64,000 bases of DNA from Gammaproteobacteria bacterium (GTDB taxonomy: Bacteria; Pseudomonadota; Gammaproteobacteria; Ga0077536), in the NCBI GenBank assembly GCA_020849475.1, contig JADLGE010000024.1:1-64000 (forward strand), given 5' to 3'. A model generated the notes under the pieces. The model ran no database searches. It was not told the origin of the DNA and saw only the letters and a program-made list of their open reading frames with translations. A program made the position numbers and the translations under genes. Shown here piece by piece: positions 3,209-25,254 of the stretch (position 1 is its first letter; every line of letters begins with the position of its first letter).

Positions 3209-3862
3209 ATGACGACAGTCGAAGTGCTGATCCCGGTCGCCGCCACGCGTATCAAGGAGCGGCCGCTGGCGCCGCGTCTCACCAGCTTGGTGGGCAAGCG
3301 TATCGCGTGGCTGGACAACATGAAGGCCAACGCCGGTGAACTGCTGCGCAATGTTGCCGAAGTCCTGCGCACGCGCGGCCATGGCTTTGAAATGGTCATC
3401 GCCGCCAAGAACGCCACCGCCGCCGCGCCGGATGCGGTGATGGCGCACCTCAAGACCTGCGACGCGGTGGTGCTGGCCATCTCCGACTGAGGCTCCTGTA
3501 CGTCGTGGAGTGTCCATGACTCGATCGTGCTTGAAACCGCCGGCATTCCAACGGCGGTGATCTGCAGTGATGAATTCGGCCCGCTGGGTCGCGCCGAAGC
3601 GCAGGTATTGGGCCTGGGCGCCTTGCCGCTGCTGCCGATTCCCCATCCGCTGGCCGGCAATGACGCCGCGCTGGTGCGGGCCAAGGCCGAGGCCATCGCC
3701 GACGAAGTGCTGGCCGCCTTGACCGACAGCGCGGCGACGCTCGCGGCGCGCCACGGTGGCCGCTTCCTGGCCTTGACCGACAAGCGCATGGCGGGCGGTG
3801 TGGTATGCATCGACGAGGCCTGCGTCTACGACCCCGGCCTCGCGCGGGGTGGCGCCTCATGA
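3209..3862 (+). CDS. UGSC-family selenoprotein, copy 1 (TGA at 3488-3490 read as selenocysteine)
   Basis: The frame from ATG 3209 reaches TGA at 3488, and the same frame continues to a TGA at 3860-3862. Read through, it gives 217 residues with Sec94 in the sequence C84-D-A-V-V-L-A-I-S-D-U-G-S-C-T-S-W. That is the UGSC motif of a selenoprotein family first recognised in marine metagenomes. The part before the TGA looks like an alternating beta/alpha fold (RIAWLDNMKANAGELL); the part after it stays coding-like (IPTAVICSDEFGPLGRA, LPIPHPLAG). A second gene in this window has the same TGA at the same place. The Sec/Cys pair (94 and 97) is probably redox active; substrate unknown. It overlaps the partner gene by ATGA. 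Sec insertion needs selA, selB, selC and selD elsewhere in the genome. Confidence 0.9.
3488..3520 (+). promoter_or_regulatory. Bacterial SECIS-like hairpin after the UGA codon, copy 1
   Basis: After the TGA, bases 3502-3508 (GTCGTGG) pair with 3514-3520 (CCATGAC) in seven pairs, one of them G-U, closing the five-base loop AGTGT. Eighteen bases lie between the UGA and the loop, and G is the second loop base. Both agree with the accepted bacterial SECIS model (G in the first two loop positions, loop 16-37 bases after UGA). SelB would be the reader. Folding was done by eye. Confidence 0.75.
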
Positions 3863-17601: not shown

Positions 17602-17681
17602 TGGGTCAGACTTCAGTCTGACATTCCGATTGCTCGTGAGGACCGCAACCTGCTTTGAATGTCAGACTGAAGTCTGACCCA
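17602..17681. repeat. Family 1 repeat doublet (25-base perfect inverted repeat)
   Basis: Bases 17602-17626 and 17657-17681 are exact reverse complements, each holding one family 1 unit, separated by 30 bases. It can fold as two small hairpins or one long stem. It lies downstream of selenoprotein copy 2 on its strand, between it and the DUF3127 promoter. Confidence 0.85.
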
Positions 17682-17698: not shown

Positions 17699-18220
17699 TT
17701 ACTGTGCTGCGCAGATCAGTTTCTTGACCTTGTCCAAGGCCTCGCGCGCCAGCGCGCGCATTTCATCATCGCTTCTATCCTGGATGGGATGGGCGACGAA
17801 CAGGCTGTCGGCATGAAAGCCCCAGGCGTTGCCCTGCGCATCGGCTGCGCCGCGAAACGCTTCCGAAGCGATGAAGCCACCGGCTACGCCGCGACTGTCG
17901 AGTTCACGTATGTCCTGCAAACTGCACGACGTACACGAGCCTCAGTCAGCCAGGCCTTCGACCACCACGTCGCAGTTAGAGGCGATGTCCTGCAGCAGCG
18001 CCACCGGCGCCGGGCGCGTGAAGGTTGGCTTCTTGTAGCGTTTGACCGTCAGGCCTTCGGCACTCAGCAAATGATCGAGGTGATCGAGAAACACGTCGCC
18101 GCGCGATTTCGAAATATCGAGCAGGCCGATGGTGAGGCCGGTCAGGCTCGCCGGTTTCGCCAGCGGCGCACGCGCGAGCGGTGCGAATTCGCCGGTCGGG
18201 TCGTAGAGGATGTCTGTCAT
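17699..18220 (-). CDS. UGSC-family selenoprotein, copy 2 (TGA at 17942-17944 read as selenocysteine)
   Basis: On the minus strand ATG 18220 opens a frame that reaches TGA at 17944-17942 and continues in the same frame to TAA at 17699. Read through, it gives 173 residues with Sec93 in C83-D-V-V-V-E-G-L-A-D-U-G-S-C-T-S-C. The upstream half is TIGLLDISKSRGDVFLDHLDHLL, like copy 1's IAWLDNMKANAGELL; after Sec it runs GGFIASEAFRGAADAQG and FVAHPIQDRSDDE, parallel to copy 1. An extra Cys99 replaces copy 1's Trp100. The start overlaps the stop of the Trx-fused partner (ATGA). Probably a Sec/Cys redox enzyme; substrate unknown. Confidence 0.9.
17912..17944 (-). promoter_or_regulatory. Bacterial SECIS-like hairpin after the UGA codon, copy 2
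   Basis: On the minus strand GTCGTGC (17930-17924) pairs with GCAGGAC (17918-17912) around AGTTT, with one G-G mismatch. Position, stem length, loop length and loop AGT match copy 1 exactly, and the loop-closing pair is C-G where copy 1 has G-C. This compensatory change supports a real structure. Confidence 0.7.
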
Positions 18221-19638
18221 GCACGTATCTCCCGGGTCACAGGGTCGGTACCGAGCTCGCCTTTCACCAGCCAGCCCGGAATGATGGCGGAAAACATGCC
18301 GGCCGGGCCGCCGGCCCGCACCAGGGTCAGGCCGCCGTCGCGGAATTTTGCACTGAGGCCGTCGCCAGGCTGGCCGCTCGCGCCGCGTGCGGTGCCCATG
18401 CCGAGGTCGACGCCCTTGATACGGGTCGCCGCATGCAGCGCCGCGGTGGCATCGGCCTTGCTCCAGCCGGCCTGGTCGAACACGCGGCCATGCTCGGGGC
18501 CAATCACCACCACGGCGTCGGCGCCGTTGATCATGTCGATGTGATTCAAACCGCGCAGGCTGCCGGCCAATGAGTAGACCAAGGCTTCGGGCGTGCGCGA
18601 TTTCTGATCGGCGCAGCCGAGCGGGCCGTCGGCGCTGAACACGGTCACCGCGGACTGCGCGCGCGACAGGCCGCGGTCTTGTGCAAGCGTGGTCCACGGC
18701 GTGTCTTCATCCTCGGCGAAACAGAAGCCGAGCTTGCCGGGATGGCCAAAGGTCGACATGTCGGTTTCCTGCGGCTTGCCGCCGCCGATGTTGCGCACCG
18801 CGAGTTGTAATGCGCGGCCGATGGTGGCGTTGGCGCGATTGCCCTGACCGAGCACATTGCCGGCCCAGTTCATGCCCAAGGCTTTGCGCACCGGACCATT
18901 GACAACGATCATCGGACCCGAGAACCAGGTGGTGGCGAGCAGGCCGTGCAGACAGAACGCCGGATCCAGCGCGGCCTCGACCGCCGCCAGCACGGCCGGA
19001 AAGTATTCCGGTTTGCAGCCCGCCAGCACCGCGTTGATGGCGACCTTCTCGACCGTGCAGTCGGTCAGCAGTGGCGGCATGCGGCCCAGCACTTCGTGGG
19101 GCGCGCGCGCGGTGGCCTTGAGCATGCGATAGATGCGTTCGGCGGTGGGTGGCACCACCGGCAGGCCGTCGCTCCAGCCACGCTCGAAGCAGTATTCGAT
19201 GCTGTCGGACAGTTCGGGCACGGCGAGTTCGCGCGAGCTGATGCGAAAGTCGCCGTACCGCAAGGCGAGACGCTCGGCGATGCCGGGCTGCACCGCCAGC
19301 GAACCACAGCCCGGACGGTATTGCGGCAGCGATTCGCCGAGGTTCGCCATACCGGTCAGCGCCCGCCATTCGTCGCGTTCCCAGCCCACCACCCGCGCTG
19401 CTTCGCGTCCGCCCTCGATCTTGATGAGGGTGGGCACGGTTTCTATGTGCAAACGATAGGAGGCCTCGAGACTGCGATCGTCAATGGCCTGACGAGTCGA
19501 GGGGAAATCCGGCTGGTCCTGCACATAGACCGTCAATGCGGCGCCGCTGTTCTCGATGGACTTCAGCACCGGGTTGACCAGTACGCAGGTCGGGCAGTCC
19601 TGTTTGACGACTGCGATCAGGCCTTCGGGTATTTGCAT
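18217..19638 (-). CDS. Thioredoxin-like domain fused to UGSC-partner domain
   Basis: A 473-residue protein. Residues 1-95 look like a thioredoxin fold: LIAVVKQDCPTCVLVNPVL (CPTC at 15-18), YVQDQPDFPS, and the cis-proline strand ETVPTLIKIEGG near 66. Residues 145-473 match the partner protein at 3859-4914: CFERGWSDGLPVVPPT, KVAINAVLAGCKPEYFP, VNGPVRKALG, RANATIGRA, VIGPEHGRVFD. Where the first partner has CAPC this copy has WFSGPM, so the dithiol seems to have moved to the fused domain. The start at 19638 (MQIPEG) is chosen because the longer frame adds low-complexity sequence. Translation into the selenoprotein gene is coupled by ATGA. Confidence 0.82.
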   Translation of the reverse strand: MQIPEGLIAVVKQDCPTCVLVNPVLKSIENSGAALTVYVQDQPDFPSTRQAIDDRSLEASYRLHIETVPTLIKIEGGREAARVVGWERDEWRALTGMANLGESLPQYRPGCGSLAVQPGIAERLALRYGDFRISSRELAVPELSDSIEYCFERGWSDGLPVVPPTAERIYRMLKATARAPHEVLGRMPPLLTDCTVEKVAINAVLAGCKPEYFPAVLAAVEAALDPAFCLHGLLATTWFSGPMIVVNGPVRKALGMNWAGNVLGQGNRANATIGRALQLAVRNIGGGKPQETDMSTFGHPGKLGFCFAEDEDTPWTTLAQDRGLSRAQSAVTVFSADGPLGCADQKSRTPEALVYSLAGSLRGLNHIDMINGADAVVVIGPEHGRVFDQAGWSKADATAALHAATRIKGVDLGMGTARGASGQPGDGLSAKFRDGGLTLVRAGGPAGMFSAIIPGWLVKGELGTDPVTREIRA

Positions 19639-20891: not shown

Positions 20892-22676
20892 TCACCGCCC
20901 CAGCAGTCCTCGCAGAGCGCTTTCGAGAGTCGCCGTCGCATCACCCACCGCAGCATGACAACGCCAGCCGACGTGATTGTCGGGCCGCACCAGCAGCGCA
21001 CCCTGCTCGGAAATCTCGCGTAACGCGGCCCATTGGCCGTCCACATCGGTATAGGCCTGCCCAGCGCCGATGGCGGCCTGCACGAGTTTCACGCCGAGGC
21101 GTTCCGCCACGACTGTGGCGGCGGACTGCCAAGCGACGCCGTCATTGCCGGTGATGAGTACGAACGCGCCCTCACTTCCTGCGAGGTCGTGGCTCGACAA
21201 GCGTTGCCCGGCGTGGCTCAACCACGCGTGGGGCAGGCGATGGCCGGGATGGGTGGTGGCCTGGTAGTTGCCACCCATGGGATCGGGAATCGGCGGCGGT
21301 GTGCCGTCATCGATCAGGGCGCCGGCGGTATAACAAAAACCAATCTCGAGATCGTGCGCCTGGAATTCGGTGCGCTGGGTTTCAAACACTTCGGCTGCGC
21401 GCGCGCGGCGCGTGGCGCCCATCGGCGTGTCGGAGAAAAACATTTCGAAGTTGGCGGCGCGCAGCGCGTCGGTATGCAAGGGCGAGAAGCCCATGCCCGC
21501 ATCCAGCACGCCGTGATTGAGCGCGGTGAACATCGCCCAGTCGACGTTGCGCCGGCCGATGGCCTGGCGTTCGCTCGCATAGCTGTCCAGCAGGCTCGGG
21601 TGTGCGCGGCCGTGCACGACCGCGGCGAGCTTCCACGCCAGGTTGTGCGCATCCTGCACCGCGGTGTTGAGACCGAGGCCGGTAGTTGGCGGATGGCGAT
21701 GGGCGGCGTCGCCGGCCAGGAATACGCGACCGACCTGGTAGCGGTCGGCGAGCACCGCTTCCAGCGTCCAGTGACTGACCTTGTGCACGGTCATTGGTGT
21801 GTCGGGCAGTTTCAACAGCGCGCGCAGGCGCGGCAGCACACTTACCTCGTCGATTTGTTCCGGGTCGTCGGGATTGAAATTGAAGTGGATGGTCCACTCT
21901 TCCGAATGCCGACCCCAGGTCGGGCCCATCGGCACCATCGCGCCGCTGCCAAAAGTGCCGCCGTGGTCGGGATTGATGAACCAGGTGATGAGACAGGCAT
22001 CGTCCCACCACGGCGAAAGATCGGCCGTGACATGGGAGCTGACGATGCGCGCGATGTTCTTGATGCCGTCCATTGCCACGCCGAGCGCGGGCCCGACGGT
22101 CTTGCCGCCATCGGCGCCGATCATGTACCGCGCGCGCACCGTCAAGGGCTGGTCTTTTTCGACATCCTTGATGATGGCGGTGACACCGTCGGCGTCCTGC
22201 GTGAACGACACCAGTTCGTGACCGAAGCGCAGCTTGCCCGGCGCACGCTTCTCGGCGTGCGCGCGCAGCAAGGGCTCGAGGCGCACCTGCGGATAATTGC
22301 TCGACGGGCAGGGGCTGTCGCGCTGGTAAAGCGGCGCGACCTTGCCGCCGCCGAAGGCGTCGATTTCGTAGAAGGTCTTGCCATCGAGTGGCCCCGTGCC
22401 GCCGAGCGAGGTACGCCAGCGCACCTTGCTCATCTGTGCCATCGGCGTGCCGACCGCGTAGATGGCGTCCGCCACGCCGTGCTGACGGAACACTTCCATG
22501 GTGCGCTGATTGAGGTAATGGGCCTTGGGCAACAGCGAGGTGCCGGCATGGCGCTCGATGAGCAGATGATCGACGCCGAGATCCGACAGGATCAGCGAAC
22601 TGGTGAGGCCACAGCCGCCGCCGCCGACTATCAGCACGGCGACTTCGAGATCAATATTCCTGGATGCGTCGGACAC
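20892..22676 (-). CDS. FAD-dependent aromatic monooxygenase (TfdB/PHBH-like)
   Basis: A 594-residue flavoprotein hydroxylase. The ADP-binding motif is VLIVGGGGCGLTSSLILSD near residue 14. LPKAHYLNQRTMEVF near 50, NYPQVRLEPLLRAH near 127 and GADGGKTV near 188 follow, then the FAD-ribityl motif GRVFLAGDAAHRHPPTTGLGLN near 330. The C-terminal thioredoxin-like extension typical of phenol hydroxylases is present. The overall pattern resembles 2,4-dichlorophenol 6-monooxygenase (TfdB). It is the last gene of a four-gene operon (TfdA-like, LLM, VOC, this), which suggests stepwise degradation of an aromatic ether or phenol. Confidence 0.88.
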   Translation of the reverse strand: MSDASRNIDLEVAVLIVGGGGCGLTSSLILSDLGVDHLLIERHAGTSLLPKAHYLNQRTMEVFRQHGVADAIYAVGTPMAQMSKVRWRTSLGGTGPLDGKTFYEIDAFGGGKVAPLYQRDSPCPSSNYPQVRLEPLLRAHAEKRAPGKLRFGHELVSFTQDADGVTAIIKDVEKDQPLTVRARYMIGADGGKTVGPALGVAMDGIKNIARIVSSHVTADLSPWWDDACLITWFINPDHGGTFGSGAMVPMGPTWGRHSEEWTIHFNFNPDDPEQIDEVSVLPRLRALLKLPDTPMTVHKVSHWTLEAVLADRYQVGRVFLAGDAAHRHPPTTGLGLNTAVQDAHNLAWKLAAVVHGRAHPSLLDSYASERQAIGRRNVDWAMFTALNHGVLDAGMGFSPLHTDALRAANFEMFFSDTPMGATRRARAAEVFETQRTEFQAHDLEIGFCYTAGALIDDGTPPPIPDPMGGNYQATTHPGHRLPHAWLSHAGQRLSSHDLAGSEGAFVLITGNDGVAWQSAATVVAERLGVKLVQAAIGAGQAYTDVDGQWAALREISEQGALLVRPDNHVGWRCHAAVGDATATLESALRGLLGR

Positions 22677-22717
22677 GCGCGGTCTCCCTGATCAATCTAA
22701 GTGTATAAGCGCGCGAC

Positions 22718-23299
22718 TCAGTCGGCGCTGGCGAACAAGGCCAGGGCGTGCGGCATGGGGGCGCCGGCCAGCGCCCAGGCGCGGGTCTGCAGTTGTGTAG
22801 CCGGCACGCCCATTTTGAAATCGTCGAGCATGCGCTGCGGGTCGTACACCGGACCTACCGGATCGGCGGCGAACTCCGGGCCGCGCATGTACTCGGTGGC
22901 GCTCGCCGCGTCGGCGAAGTTGTCGACCTGCATCTCGACATACTGACCATCGGGGTCACGGTAATAGAGCGAGGTGGTGACGCCGTGCTGTATCGGCACC
23001 TTGGGTTCGATGCCGCGCGCCTTGAGTGATTCGAAGCGCGCCAGCAGCGCGCCGAGATCAGCAAACGTATACGCGGTATGCATGAGGCCGACGCTGTGCG
23101 GCGTGCGCTCGACGAACGGCATGCCGGGCGGCGCATTCAACAATGCCAGGCGGTGATGTTCTTCATCGTAGGTGATGAAGCAGATCATCGGGTCTTCGTA
23201 GACCACGTGTGCATCGAGCACTGTGCAATACCAGTCGCGCATCGCATCGCGACGATTGGTCATGAGAACGGCGTGAGCGAATTTGGGCGTGCTGGCCAT
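22718..23299 (-). CDS. VOC-family metalloprotein (extradiol dioxygenase-like)
   Basis: A 193-residue vicinal-oxygen-chelate protein. The expected metal ligands are visible: His in FAHAVLMTNRRDAMRDWY near residue 9, His in GLMHTAYTFADL near 70, and Glu in YYRDPDGQYVEMQVDNF near 125. That is the H, H, E triad of catechol 2,3-dioxygenase-like domains. The C-terminus has GPVYDPQRMLDDFKMG. ATG 23299 is chosen; the in-frame extension upstream is arginine-rich and unlikely. Gap of 41 bases to the monooxygenase gene supports one transcript, in which a ring-cleavage or isomerase step is plausible. Confidence 0.87.
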   Translation of the reverse strand: MASTPKFAHAVLMTNRRDAMRDWYCTVLDAHVVYEDPMICFITYDEEHHRLALLNAPPGMPFVERTPHSVGLMHTAYTFADLGALLARFESLKARGIEPKVPIQHGVTTSLYYRDPDGQYVEMQVDNFADAASATEYMRGPEFAADPVGPVYDPQRMLDDFKMGVPATQLQTRAWALAGAPMPHALALFASAD

Positions 23300-23375
23300 G
23301 AATTTATCCCCGCTGATGGTGCCCGGCGAGCATATAGGCGGCCTGCCTGTCAGGCAACGCGACGTGCGGCAGGGC

Positions 23376-24350
23376 TCAGGCCAGCGCGGCAATGGCCTTG
23401 CGCGTCGCCACCAGGCGGTCTTCATTGACGGGACTGACGGCGATCACCGGCAGGTCGGCGCCGGCGGCGCGAAACGCTTCGAGCTGCGCGCGGCACTGCG
23501 CGGTGTTGCCGAACACGCACACCTCGCGCACCAGTTCATCGGGAATGTGCTTGACCGCTTCGGCGCGGCTGGCGCCGCGTCCCAAGGCGCGTATCGCATC
23601 CATCGCGGCGCCGAAGCCTGCGCGCCGCCATTGGCGGCGGTAGTTGGGCAAGAGTGCGAAGAACGCGAGGTTGTAGCGCGCGGCGGACAGCGCCGCGTCG
23701 GCGTCATCACTGACAAAAGTGGGGATGCTGAGTACACAGGTGCATTCGTCGAGACCGCGCTGCGCCTTGGCCGCGCTGTCACGGGCCGCCGCCACCAGGC
23801 GCGGCAGATAACTCATGGGCGACAAAAACGGCATGAGGCCATCGCCGACTTCGCCGGCCACCGCCGCGCTTTCGATGGTGTTGGCGGCGACATAGACCTT
23901 GACCGGCGCGCGTGAGGCGGCCTGTTGCAGAAAGCCCGAGCCGGCGCGGCCGGCGAGACCGTCCTGCACAAAGGCCACGTAGTCACGCAGATGCTGTCGC
24001 GCATCGCCCATGTCGATGCCGAGTGAACCAAGCAGGCCGCGATGGCTCATGCCGAAGCCGACGCGCAGGCGTCCGCCGCTGAGTTCGGCGATGGTGCGGC
24101 ACGTCGAAGCGGCCAGGAAGGGATGGCGAAAATAGATGTTGGCGATATTGGTGCCGACCGTCAGGCGCGTGGTGGCGCCGGCAATCGCCTGCGCGCAGGC
24201 AAGCGCATCGCCACGGCCTTCATTGACGAACACCGAATCAAAACCGTGCTGCTCGGCAAGCCGCCCGATGTCGACGAATTCCTGCGGTGGGCCGGCGGTG
24301 ACGGTGGAAAGCACGACGCCGAGGCGCGCGCGCGTGGCTGTTGTCGACAT
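23376..24350 (-). CDS. LLM-class flavin-dependent oxidoreductase
   Basis: A 324-residue luciferase-like TIM-barrel protein. Seen: LGVVLSTVTAGPPQEFVDIGRLAEQHGFDSVFVNEGRGD, then ATTRLTVGTNIANIYFRHPFLAAST near 60, GRLRVGFGMSHRG near 93, and VKVYVAANTIESAAVAGEVGDGLMPF near 150. These are signatures of the F420/FMN-dependent LLM branch. It usually oxidises or reduces a small carbonyl, sulfonate or aromatic. The cofactor (FMN or F420) is not decidable here. It sits between the dioxygenase and VOC genes on the same strand. Confidence 0.87.
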   Translation of the reverse strand: MSTTATRARLGVVLSTVTAGPPQEFVDIGRLAEQHGFDSVFVNEGRGDALACAQAIAGATTRLTVGTNIANIYFRHPFLAASTCRTIAELSGGRLRVGFGMSHRGLLGSLGIDMGDARQHLRDYVAFVQDGLAGRAGSGFLQQAASRAPVKVYVAANTIESAAVAGEVGDGLMPFLSPMSYLPRLVAAARDSAAKAQRGLDECTCVLSIPTFVSDDADAALSAARYNLAFFALLPNYRRQWRRAGFGAAMDAIRALGRGASRAEAVKHIPDELVREVCVFGNTAQCRAQLEAFRAAGADLPVIAVSPVNEDRLVATRKAIAALA

Positions 24351-24393
24351 GGTGGCGGGCTCTGTGGAAACGGGAAGTGACGATAGCGCCGAA

Positions 24394-25254
24394 TCAGGCG
24401 ATGTCGAGCGTGGTCACACGTCTCAACTCGCGTCGATGCTTGTGATCTTCAAAGGGCCGCGCGCGATGCATGGTGGTGCGGTTGTCCCAGATCACGAGAT
24501 CGTGCTCCTGCCAGCGGTGGCGATAGACGAACTGCGGCTGCGTCGCATGCTCCATCAATTCGCGCAGCATGAGCTTGCCTTCCGGCAGCGACCATTCAAG
24601 GATGCGCGAGGCGTGGGACGCGAGATACAGCGCACGCCGGCCGGTGACCGTGCTGTGGCGTACCAGGGGATGGACGGCGCCGCGCAGTTTCTCGAGCTCC
24701 TGAGGGGAAAAATCAAAGCCGAGTGTCTGGCGCGAGTAGGCGATGGAGTGATGCACGGTCAAGCCTTCGAGCTGCTGCTTGAGATCGGCGGACAAGGCGT
24801 CATAGGCGGCGCGCATGTCGGCGAACTCGGTGTCGGCGCCGGCCGGCGGCAGCACGCGCGTAGACAGCAATGAATAACGGCCCGGCGGATCTTCGAACGA
24901 TGCGTCGGTGTGCCACAGGCGATTGGCGAGGCCGTAGTGACGGCGCCGATCGTCGGCAGCCAACACCGCGCCGTGCTCATCGACATTGGAGATATCGGTC
25001 AGCGCTTCGTTGCCGAAGCGATTGGCGCTGAGCGCGGCCGAGCCGGTCTTGGCGTGCAGCGTGCCATCGAAGCGCTCCGCGAATGCCAACTGCTCGCTGT
25101 CGCTGAAGGGCTGATTGCGAAACACCAGCACGCCGTAGCGGTCCATGCCGGCGCGGAGCGCGTCGAGCGTGGCGTGGTCTTCAACCCGGCGCAGATCGAC
25201 ACCGCGCGCTTCGCCGACGAACAAGGGATGCAAAGCTGTGAATTCGAGCGCCAT
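24394..25254 (-). CDS. TauD/TfdA-family Fe(II)/2-oxoglutarate dioxygenase
   Basis: A 286-residue dioxygenase. The iron ligands are His and Asp in RLWHTDASFEDPP near residue 112, and a distal His in NRTTMHRARPFEDH near 260; the 2-oxoglutarate-binding Arg should be in HRRELRRVTTLD. Other family marks are GVLVFRNQPFSDSEQLAFAERFD near 40 and VHPLVRHSTVTGRRALYL near 190. TfdA and relatives cleave aryloxyalkanoates or other C-O or C-S bonds. It is the first gene of the operon with a TfdB-like enzyme, which fits an ether-cleavage then hydroxylation route. Confidence 0.9.
   Translation of the reverse strand: MALEFTALHPLFVGEARGVDLRRVEDHATLDALRAGMDRYGVLVFRNQPFSDSEQLAFAERFDGTLHAKTGSAALSANRFGNEALTDISNVDEHGAVLAADDRRRHYGLANRLWHTDASFEDPPGRYSLLSTRVLPPAGADTEFADMRAAYDALSADLKQQLEGLTVHHSIAYSRQTLGFDFSPQELEKLRGAVHPLVRHSTVTGRRALYLASHASRILEWSLPEGKLMLRELMEHATQPQFVYRHRWQEHDLVIWDNRTTMHRARPFEDHKHRRELRRVTTLDIA

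Follow-up and report, generated by a model that had tools for sequence, protein, structure and literature searches.

The window analysed here, a stretch of DNA of 64 kb, carries two copies of an arrangement in which a UGSC-family selenoprotein gene lies beside a gene for a larger partner protein. At locus 2, on the minus strand, the two genes make up a two-gene operon of a Sec-competent bacterium, encoding the UGSC selenoprotein and a partner that combines a CxxC thioredoxin-like domain with a conserved core. The features of both loci are as follows:

17699 to 18220, minus strand: UGSC-family selenoprotein gene of locus 2, 173 aa, with Sec as residue 93
17942 to 17944, minus strand: in-frame TGA, seen in the sequence and read as Sec (U93 of U-G-S-C)
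17912 to 17930, minus strand: SECIS-type hairpin 3' of the TGA, apical loop GUU, with a paired stem and a predicted fold
17972 to 17974, minus strand: Cys codon (C83), 10 residues before Sec, present in the three copies of the genome
18217 to 19638, minus strand: partner gene of locus 2, 473 aa, with an N-terminal thioredoxin-like domain and a core of about 330 aa, from its translation and the relatives in profiles A4 and A2
19348 to 19638, minus strand: thioredoxin-like domain, partner residues 1-97, with CPTC as residues 15-18 (19596-19585)
18220 to 19221, minus strand: partner core domain, with D-G-L-P ... A-G-C ... N-G-P ... R-A-N-A-T-I-G-R-A ... F-C-F-A-E-D
18217 to 18220, minus strand: ATGA in which the partner stop and the UGSC start overlap, seen in the sequence
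3209 to 3862, plus strand: UGSC selenoprotein gene of locus 1, with TGA at 3488-3490 and a hairpin at about 3502-3520; 158.8 bits to PF24696
3859 to 4914, plus strand: partner gene of locus 1, 351 aa, without a thioredoxin domain and 40% identical to the core of the locus 2 partner

The codons TGA GGC TCG TGT at 17944-17933 of the minus strand spell the family motif, U/C-G-S-C, in its Sec form. An earlier note on this DNA had read the TGA at 17944-17942 as being followed by G-S-C-T-S-C, which our translation confirms, with the TGA as residue 93 of 173. It had also described a reversed gene order with the ATGA overlap kept, and this is what we observe, since locus 2 is partner-first, locus 1 is UGSC-first, and both share the ATGA; about 35 of 80 related loci could have such an overlap too. 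Its further claim of a Cys exactly 10 residues before Sec stands for both loci (C83/U93 in locus 2 and C84/U94 in locus 1) but does not extend to the family as an invariant, as this Cys, although common, is found in 79 of 130 UGSC sequences.

UGSC family membership and the reading of the TGA codon

When read through the TGA, the locus 2 protein is a member of the known UGSC family, with 130.1 bits against NF041046 (curated cut-off 125) and 122.5 bits against PF24696 (curated cut-off 25). UGSC is already a described family, and consequently the selenoprotein gene is not new in itself. The "UGSC-containing protein" is known from the GOS data and later selenoproteome surveys, which list it as function-unknown and in which no constant neighbouring partner was found mentioned (PMC2398784, PMC13188914); a 2026 review assigns it no function (PMC13188914). 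The 2008 survey of ocean samples counts 255 members with Sec and 21 homologues with Cys, places UGSC among the most abundant selenoproteins of aquatic metagenomes, suggests a Trx-like fold, and notes a fusion to an undescribed "Unknown_1" domain, which may correspond to our partner core (PMC2398784). The locus 2 gene has the same motif as the family, and Sec is present in nearly all the members found in our study. The AlphaFold2 model of the UGSC protein (pLDDT 94) is a five-strand alpha/beta fold of flavodoxin-like type, in which Sec93 sits between a beta strand (85-91) and a helix (94-109). Among solved structures the closest folds are likewise flavodoxin-like, at a modest TM of about 0.45, and a thioredoxin fold was absent among the best 50 structural matches to the model, in contrast to the Trx-like fold that the survey suggests.

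It is virtually certain, from genomic evidence, that the TGA of locus 2 encodes Sec. The opposite reading, that the TGA is a real stop followed by a decayed or separately started downstream gene, has the standard code in its favor, where TGA terminates translation, yet it is extremely improbable given that the TGA and a matching downstream protein are kept across phyla, that the SECIS-type hairpin carries compensatory pairs, and that the codon tracks the Sec machinery, including a case of TAG with a CUA anticodon. The earlier note held that the TGA was functional and offered unrelated downstream halves as the finding that would speak against it; the halves proved to be homologous, as seen with the UGSC profile (A3) and with PF24696, which covers both sides of the TGA. 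The functional reading is borne out by the Sec machinery, the hairpin, the orthologues, the Cys forms and the TAG/CUA case. Many genomes have orthologues of the locus 2 gene with TGA at the same codon, which together with the family scores puts the finding well outside chance. The Sec site is occupied by TGA or TAG in 102 Sec-form sequences and by a Cys codon in 3.

The hairpin lies directly 3' of the Sec codon and has a short G/U-containing loop, as bacterial SECIS elements do; at locus 2 it folds with -18.2 kcal/mol (z -2.1). Numbering from the T of TGA as position 1 in 102 distinct Sec-form sequences, the pairs 17-31, 20-28 and 21-27 are kept in 102/102, and pair 21-27 is C-G in 90 and G-C in 10, a compensatory swap. 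The apical loop is GUN in 96 of the 102. When codons were exchanged among sequences sharing the same amino acid, the maximum pairing in 500 shuffles was 0.928, compared with 0.941 observed. Ser at the loop position is encoded by AGT in 81/81 cases, a codon that accounts for 17 of 134 Ser codons in seven genes of the window; two of the three Cys-form UGSC genes use TCG at this position.

The genome of the window encodes SelB (431 bits, cut-off 242) and tRNA-Sec (65 bits), the latter with the anticodon UCA; on contig C26, the ORF immediately preceding selB was identified as selA by its sequence and position. We searched fourteen genomes for selB, which exceeded the cut-off in nine of the ten with a Sec-form UGSC, the exception being G418, whose genome is 62% complete and in which none was found over the cut-off. 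Among the same fourteen, selB did not exceed the cut-off in the three genomes with a Cys-codon UGSC (G143, G277 and G453), nor in G415, a genome without UGSC. UAG-encoded Sec has been reported in Geodermatophilaceae, including proteins with the UGSC motif (PMC5330540). Our Blastococcus genome (locus L089, genome G457) matches that report, with TAG as its UGSC codon and CUA as its tRNA-Sec anticodon, whereas the organism of the window uses TGA and the UCA anticodon. UGSC, partner, tRNA-Sec and selB all occur within 4.2 kb in genome G311, and in 9 of 81 loci SelA/SelB-like ORFs, assigned from sequence clusters and by eye, lie no more than 8 kb away. At L020 (8064-9509), an MsrA/MsrB-like fusion ORF, assigned by eye, overlaps or adjoins the tRNA-Sec gene beside selA and selB.

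The partner protein and its association with UGSC

The description of the partner as thioredoxin-fused was upheld by a profile match, a structural comparison and the conserved CxxC. The best PDB matches of its profile (A4) are thioredoxins (E 7e-4), and Foldseek pairs its N-terminal domain with thioredoxins at prob 1.00, in agreement with a thioredoxin-like domain that has CxxC at a helix start. Lys12, Cys15, Cys18 and Cys111 are present in 50/50 Trx-class partner sequences, and Cys208 and Cys306 in 51/51. Searches of the locus 2 partner against Pfam and NCBIfam gave nothing above the cut-offs, with recurrent weak thioredoxin-type matches confined to the N-terminus. The AlphaFold2 model (pLDDT 89) comprises the N-terminal thioredoxin domain and the core, which is highly conserved, is roughly double UGSC in size, and had no PDB match at E below 1e-3 in Foldseek. 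The D-G-x-P and N-G-P motifs of the core are invariant. A class I fumarase or cyclic amide hydrolase fold for the core was considered and rejected, the matches being weak (prob 0.28-0.69, TM about 0.2). The partner thus shares a CxxC thioredoxin-like domain with known thioredoxin fusions but differs from them in the attached core, a widespread conserved protein region for which Pfam and NCBIfam hold no model.

UGSC and its partner almost certainly constitute a near-obligate pair whose families descend together. We scanned the genomes of 84,980 species with the partner core alone as query and took the best 80 loci, 79 of which also contain a UGSC gene, with the UGSC codon being TGA in 75, TAG in one and TGC in one, and the contig ending ahead of the codon in the remaining two. 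Strains of Pseudohongiella and Pseudonocardia are among those that the scan found. The only one of the best 80 without a UGSC neighbour (L106) was rejected as a case of a partner without UGSC, because the UGSC gene of that genome was found on another contig. In 74 of the 80 loci UGSC comes after the partner in the same orientation, at a distance of up to about 300 bp; it is divergent and adjacent in two (L067 and L071) and lies 3.9-7.4 kb away in three. Because these 80 loci contain the partners most closely related to that of locus 2, whole-genome counts are a fairer test. The co-occurrence sample was drawn from the genomes behind the retrieved loci, Actinomycetota included, and its 33 genomes from several phyla contain 64 UGSC genes and 66 partners, with 61 of the 64 UGSC genes within 1.5 kb of a partner and copy numbers that correlate at r 0.985. 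The 36 genomes examined from the window's order have 65 UGSC genes, of which 64 lie no more than 400 bp from a partner. In a sample of 398 Pseudomonadota genomes, UGSC is present in five, that of the window among them, and the partner family in exactly the same ones.

The earlier note had taken the pair as a unit, suggested examining its co-occurrence and phylogeny across genomes, and named partners that commonly occur without UGSC as the finding that would contradict it. We looked for such partners in three ways and found pairing in 79/80 loci, 61/64 genes and 64/65 genes; the idea of a unit is sustained by the partner-seeded loci, the genome counts and the mirrored trees. As judged from these genomes, the two-gene pair is one that recurs across many bacterial phyla, and with this the known UGSC selenoprotein gains a near-constant partner. 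No description of this partner was found in the open-licence literature searched; relative to that literature, what is new here is the near-obligate partner, the thioredoxin fusion, the matched paralogues, and a single-chain form with a signal-peptide-like start.

The genome of the window has a third UGSC-partner pair, with one in-frame TGA, on contig C79 (L021, 8653-11885), in an apparent operon with genes for a protein with a thiolase domain (NF006010, 709 bits) and for a zinc-ribbon protein recognized by eye as DUF35-like. In trees of 120 UGSC-partner pairs, the thioredoxin-fused class forms one clade for UGSC and for the partner alike, its "non-Trx" members being one truncated contig and one sequence with undetermined bases, and the UGSC-first pairs form one clade in the UGSC tree. 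Distances within one family parallel those within the other (r 0.93 overall and 0.73 within the Trx class). Given the matched clades and mirrored distances, the three pairs of this genome are most simply explained as old paralogues, each of which has stayed with its own partner. The reversed gene order of locus 2 is, on the topology of these trees, no quirk but the mark of an ancient split between paralogous pair types. A Cys at Sec+6 is present in 100/100 partner-first UGSC sequences and in 0/19 UGSC-first ones. It had at first appeared to track the thioredoxin fusion nearly perfectly, an interpretation that we rejected because partner-first pairs without thioredoxin also have it; it marks the clade and not the fusion.

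The 2.2-Mb genome of the relative G418 contains thirteen UGSC matches, mostly in long open frames. The only one of these frames that was read fully (L155:1500-3305, minus strand) encodes a chain of 601 aa with a signal-peptide-like start, followed by UGSC and then the partner core, and this N-terminus suggests that exported selenoproteins may exist. Two partner cysteines that occur without exception in the two-gene systems are missing from the fused homologue, which indicates that these cysteines are not universally catalytic.

Possible function of the UGSC-partner pair

Since the partner core matches neither a Pfam or NCBIfam family nor a solved fold, the function of the pair can only be inferred. 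UGSC and the partner probably form one physical enzyme, and it seems somewhat more plausible than otherwise, though with less assurance, that this enzyme performs thioredoxin-recycled selenol chemistry. UGSC would present Sec at the N-terminus of a helix that follows a beta strand, from where, as a nucleophile of low pKa, it could attack a small substrate bound by the partner core. The reaction would leave a selenosulfide between Sec and the Cys at +3 or +6 (UGSC / UGSCxxC), which in the Trx-fused subclass could be reduced back to the selenol by the partner's own thioredoxin domain, and in pairs without the fused domain by a separate thioredoxin. It is important to note that the Sec+6 Cys tracks gene order and not fusion, and for this reason it is no proof of a disulfide relay between Trx and Sec. 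A bolder proposal, which we advance tentatively and consider rather less likely than not to hold in full, is that UGSC and the partner represent a two-component selenol enzyme of a new class, recycled by thioredoxin and distributed over many phyla, with a substrate-binding core fold of its own, three ancient paralogues in one genome and an exported single-chain version, as a possible counterpart of glycine/proline reductase.

Genomic context gives limited guidance on the substrate. ORF clustering of 81 loci yielded no gene conserved beyond the pair; the recurrent neighbours, namely SelA/SelB-like ORFs and a thiolase with a Liv-type ABC transporter, occur only in subsets of the loci, and for this reason we rejected an assignment of function from neighbours. 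The neighbouring genes differ between lineages, and as a result the substrate is not readable from context. Genes for a thiolase and a Liv-type transporter lie at some UGSC-partner loci of gammaproteobacterial relatives, and together with the thiolase and DUF35-like genes of contig C79 they point to a possible role in the catabolism of CoA-linked or small organic acids.

Other functions have to be weighed against thioredoxin-recycled selenol chemistry. The most serious of them, although unlikely, is a reductase resembling GrdB/PrdB, in which Sec would form a selenoether with the substrate, the core would activate it for reductive C-X cleavage (e.g., C-N or C-S), and thioredoxin would donate the electrons. 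Glycine reductase uses thioredoxin. The selenoprotein B family (PF07355) has in common with UGSC a U-x-x-C after a beta strand, a helix and LE..GIP, the two Sec residues were aligned in the profile comparison, and GrdB/PrdB-like Sec genes occur in the window's order. However, that comparison was not significant (hhalign probability 2.3%, E 0.02), the UGSC members had no GRDB match in Pfam, and the partner core, different and uncharacterised, matches no reductase subunit; we therefore rejected homology of UGSC to GrdB/PrdB, suggestive as the motif is. A role in stress or detoxification, in which UGSC would act as a selenol peroxidase or scavenge peroxides, electrophiles or metals with reducing equivalents delivered by the partner, is less likely still. 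The thioredoxin fusion would suit it, and a redox role is assumed for many selenoproteins of bacteria (PMC9312934), but UGSC models as flavodoxin-like and neither as a peroxiredoxin nor with a Trx fold, and the presence of several paralogues in a genome, each accompanied by a large partner core of its own, as well as the CoA-type neighbours of some pairs, would be unusual for a peroxidase.

Least favoured among the functional alternatives, and in our opinion improbable, is that the partner is a maturation or assembly factor of UGSC, responsible for thiol protection or the repair of oxidized Sec, and not a catalytic subunit. The coupling of copy numbers (r 0.985) would be expected of a dedicated chaperone no less than of a subunit, but the single-chain fusion with its signal-peptide-like start keeps both halves in one protein, and the size and high conservation of the core, about twofold larger than UGSC, also speak against this alternative. 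The practical value of a near-constant partner with a built-in thioredoxin domain is that it tells which protein to co-express and which residues to mutate; it would also provide an explanation, should UGSC alone be found inactive.

Additional observations at these loci

Genes of the GrdB/PrdB-like type, with an in-frame TGA and the motif U-P-V-C-H-Q-T-V, were observed in the window's order at L169 (1228-2100), L170 (469-1338) and L166 (1099-2043). Upstream of locus 2, positions 20895-25254 of the window contain genes for a glyoxalase-type dioxygenase, an LLM-class oxidoreductase and a TauD dioxygenase beside an FAD monooxygenase, an apparent catabolic cluster. The palindrome GTCAGACTNNAGTCTGAC is present in 9 copies in the 64 kb, where 0 are expected, at positions 17605-17678, 2159, 7968, 14013, 20834, 44036, 44083 and 50841. 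Two inverted copies located just 3' of the UGSC gene of locus 2 fold into a hairpin of very high stability (z -9.0), which is probably a terminator or a REP-like element between genes.
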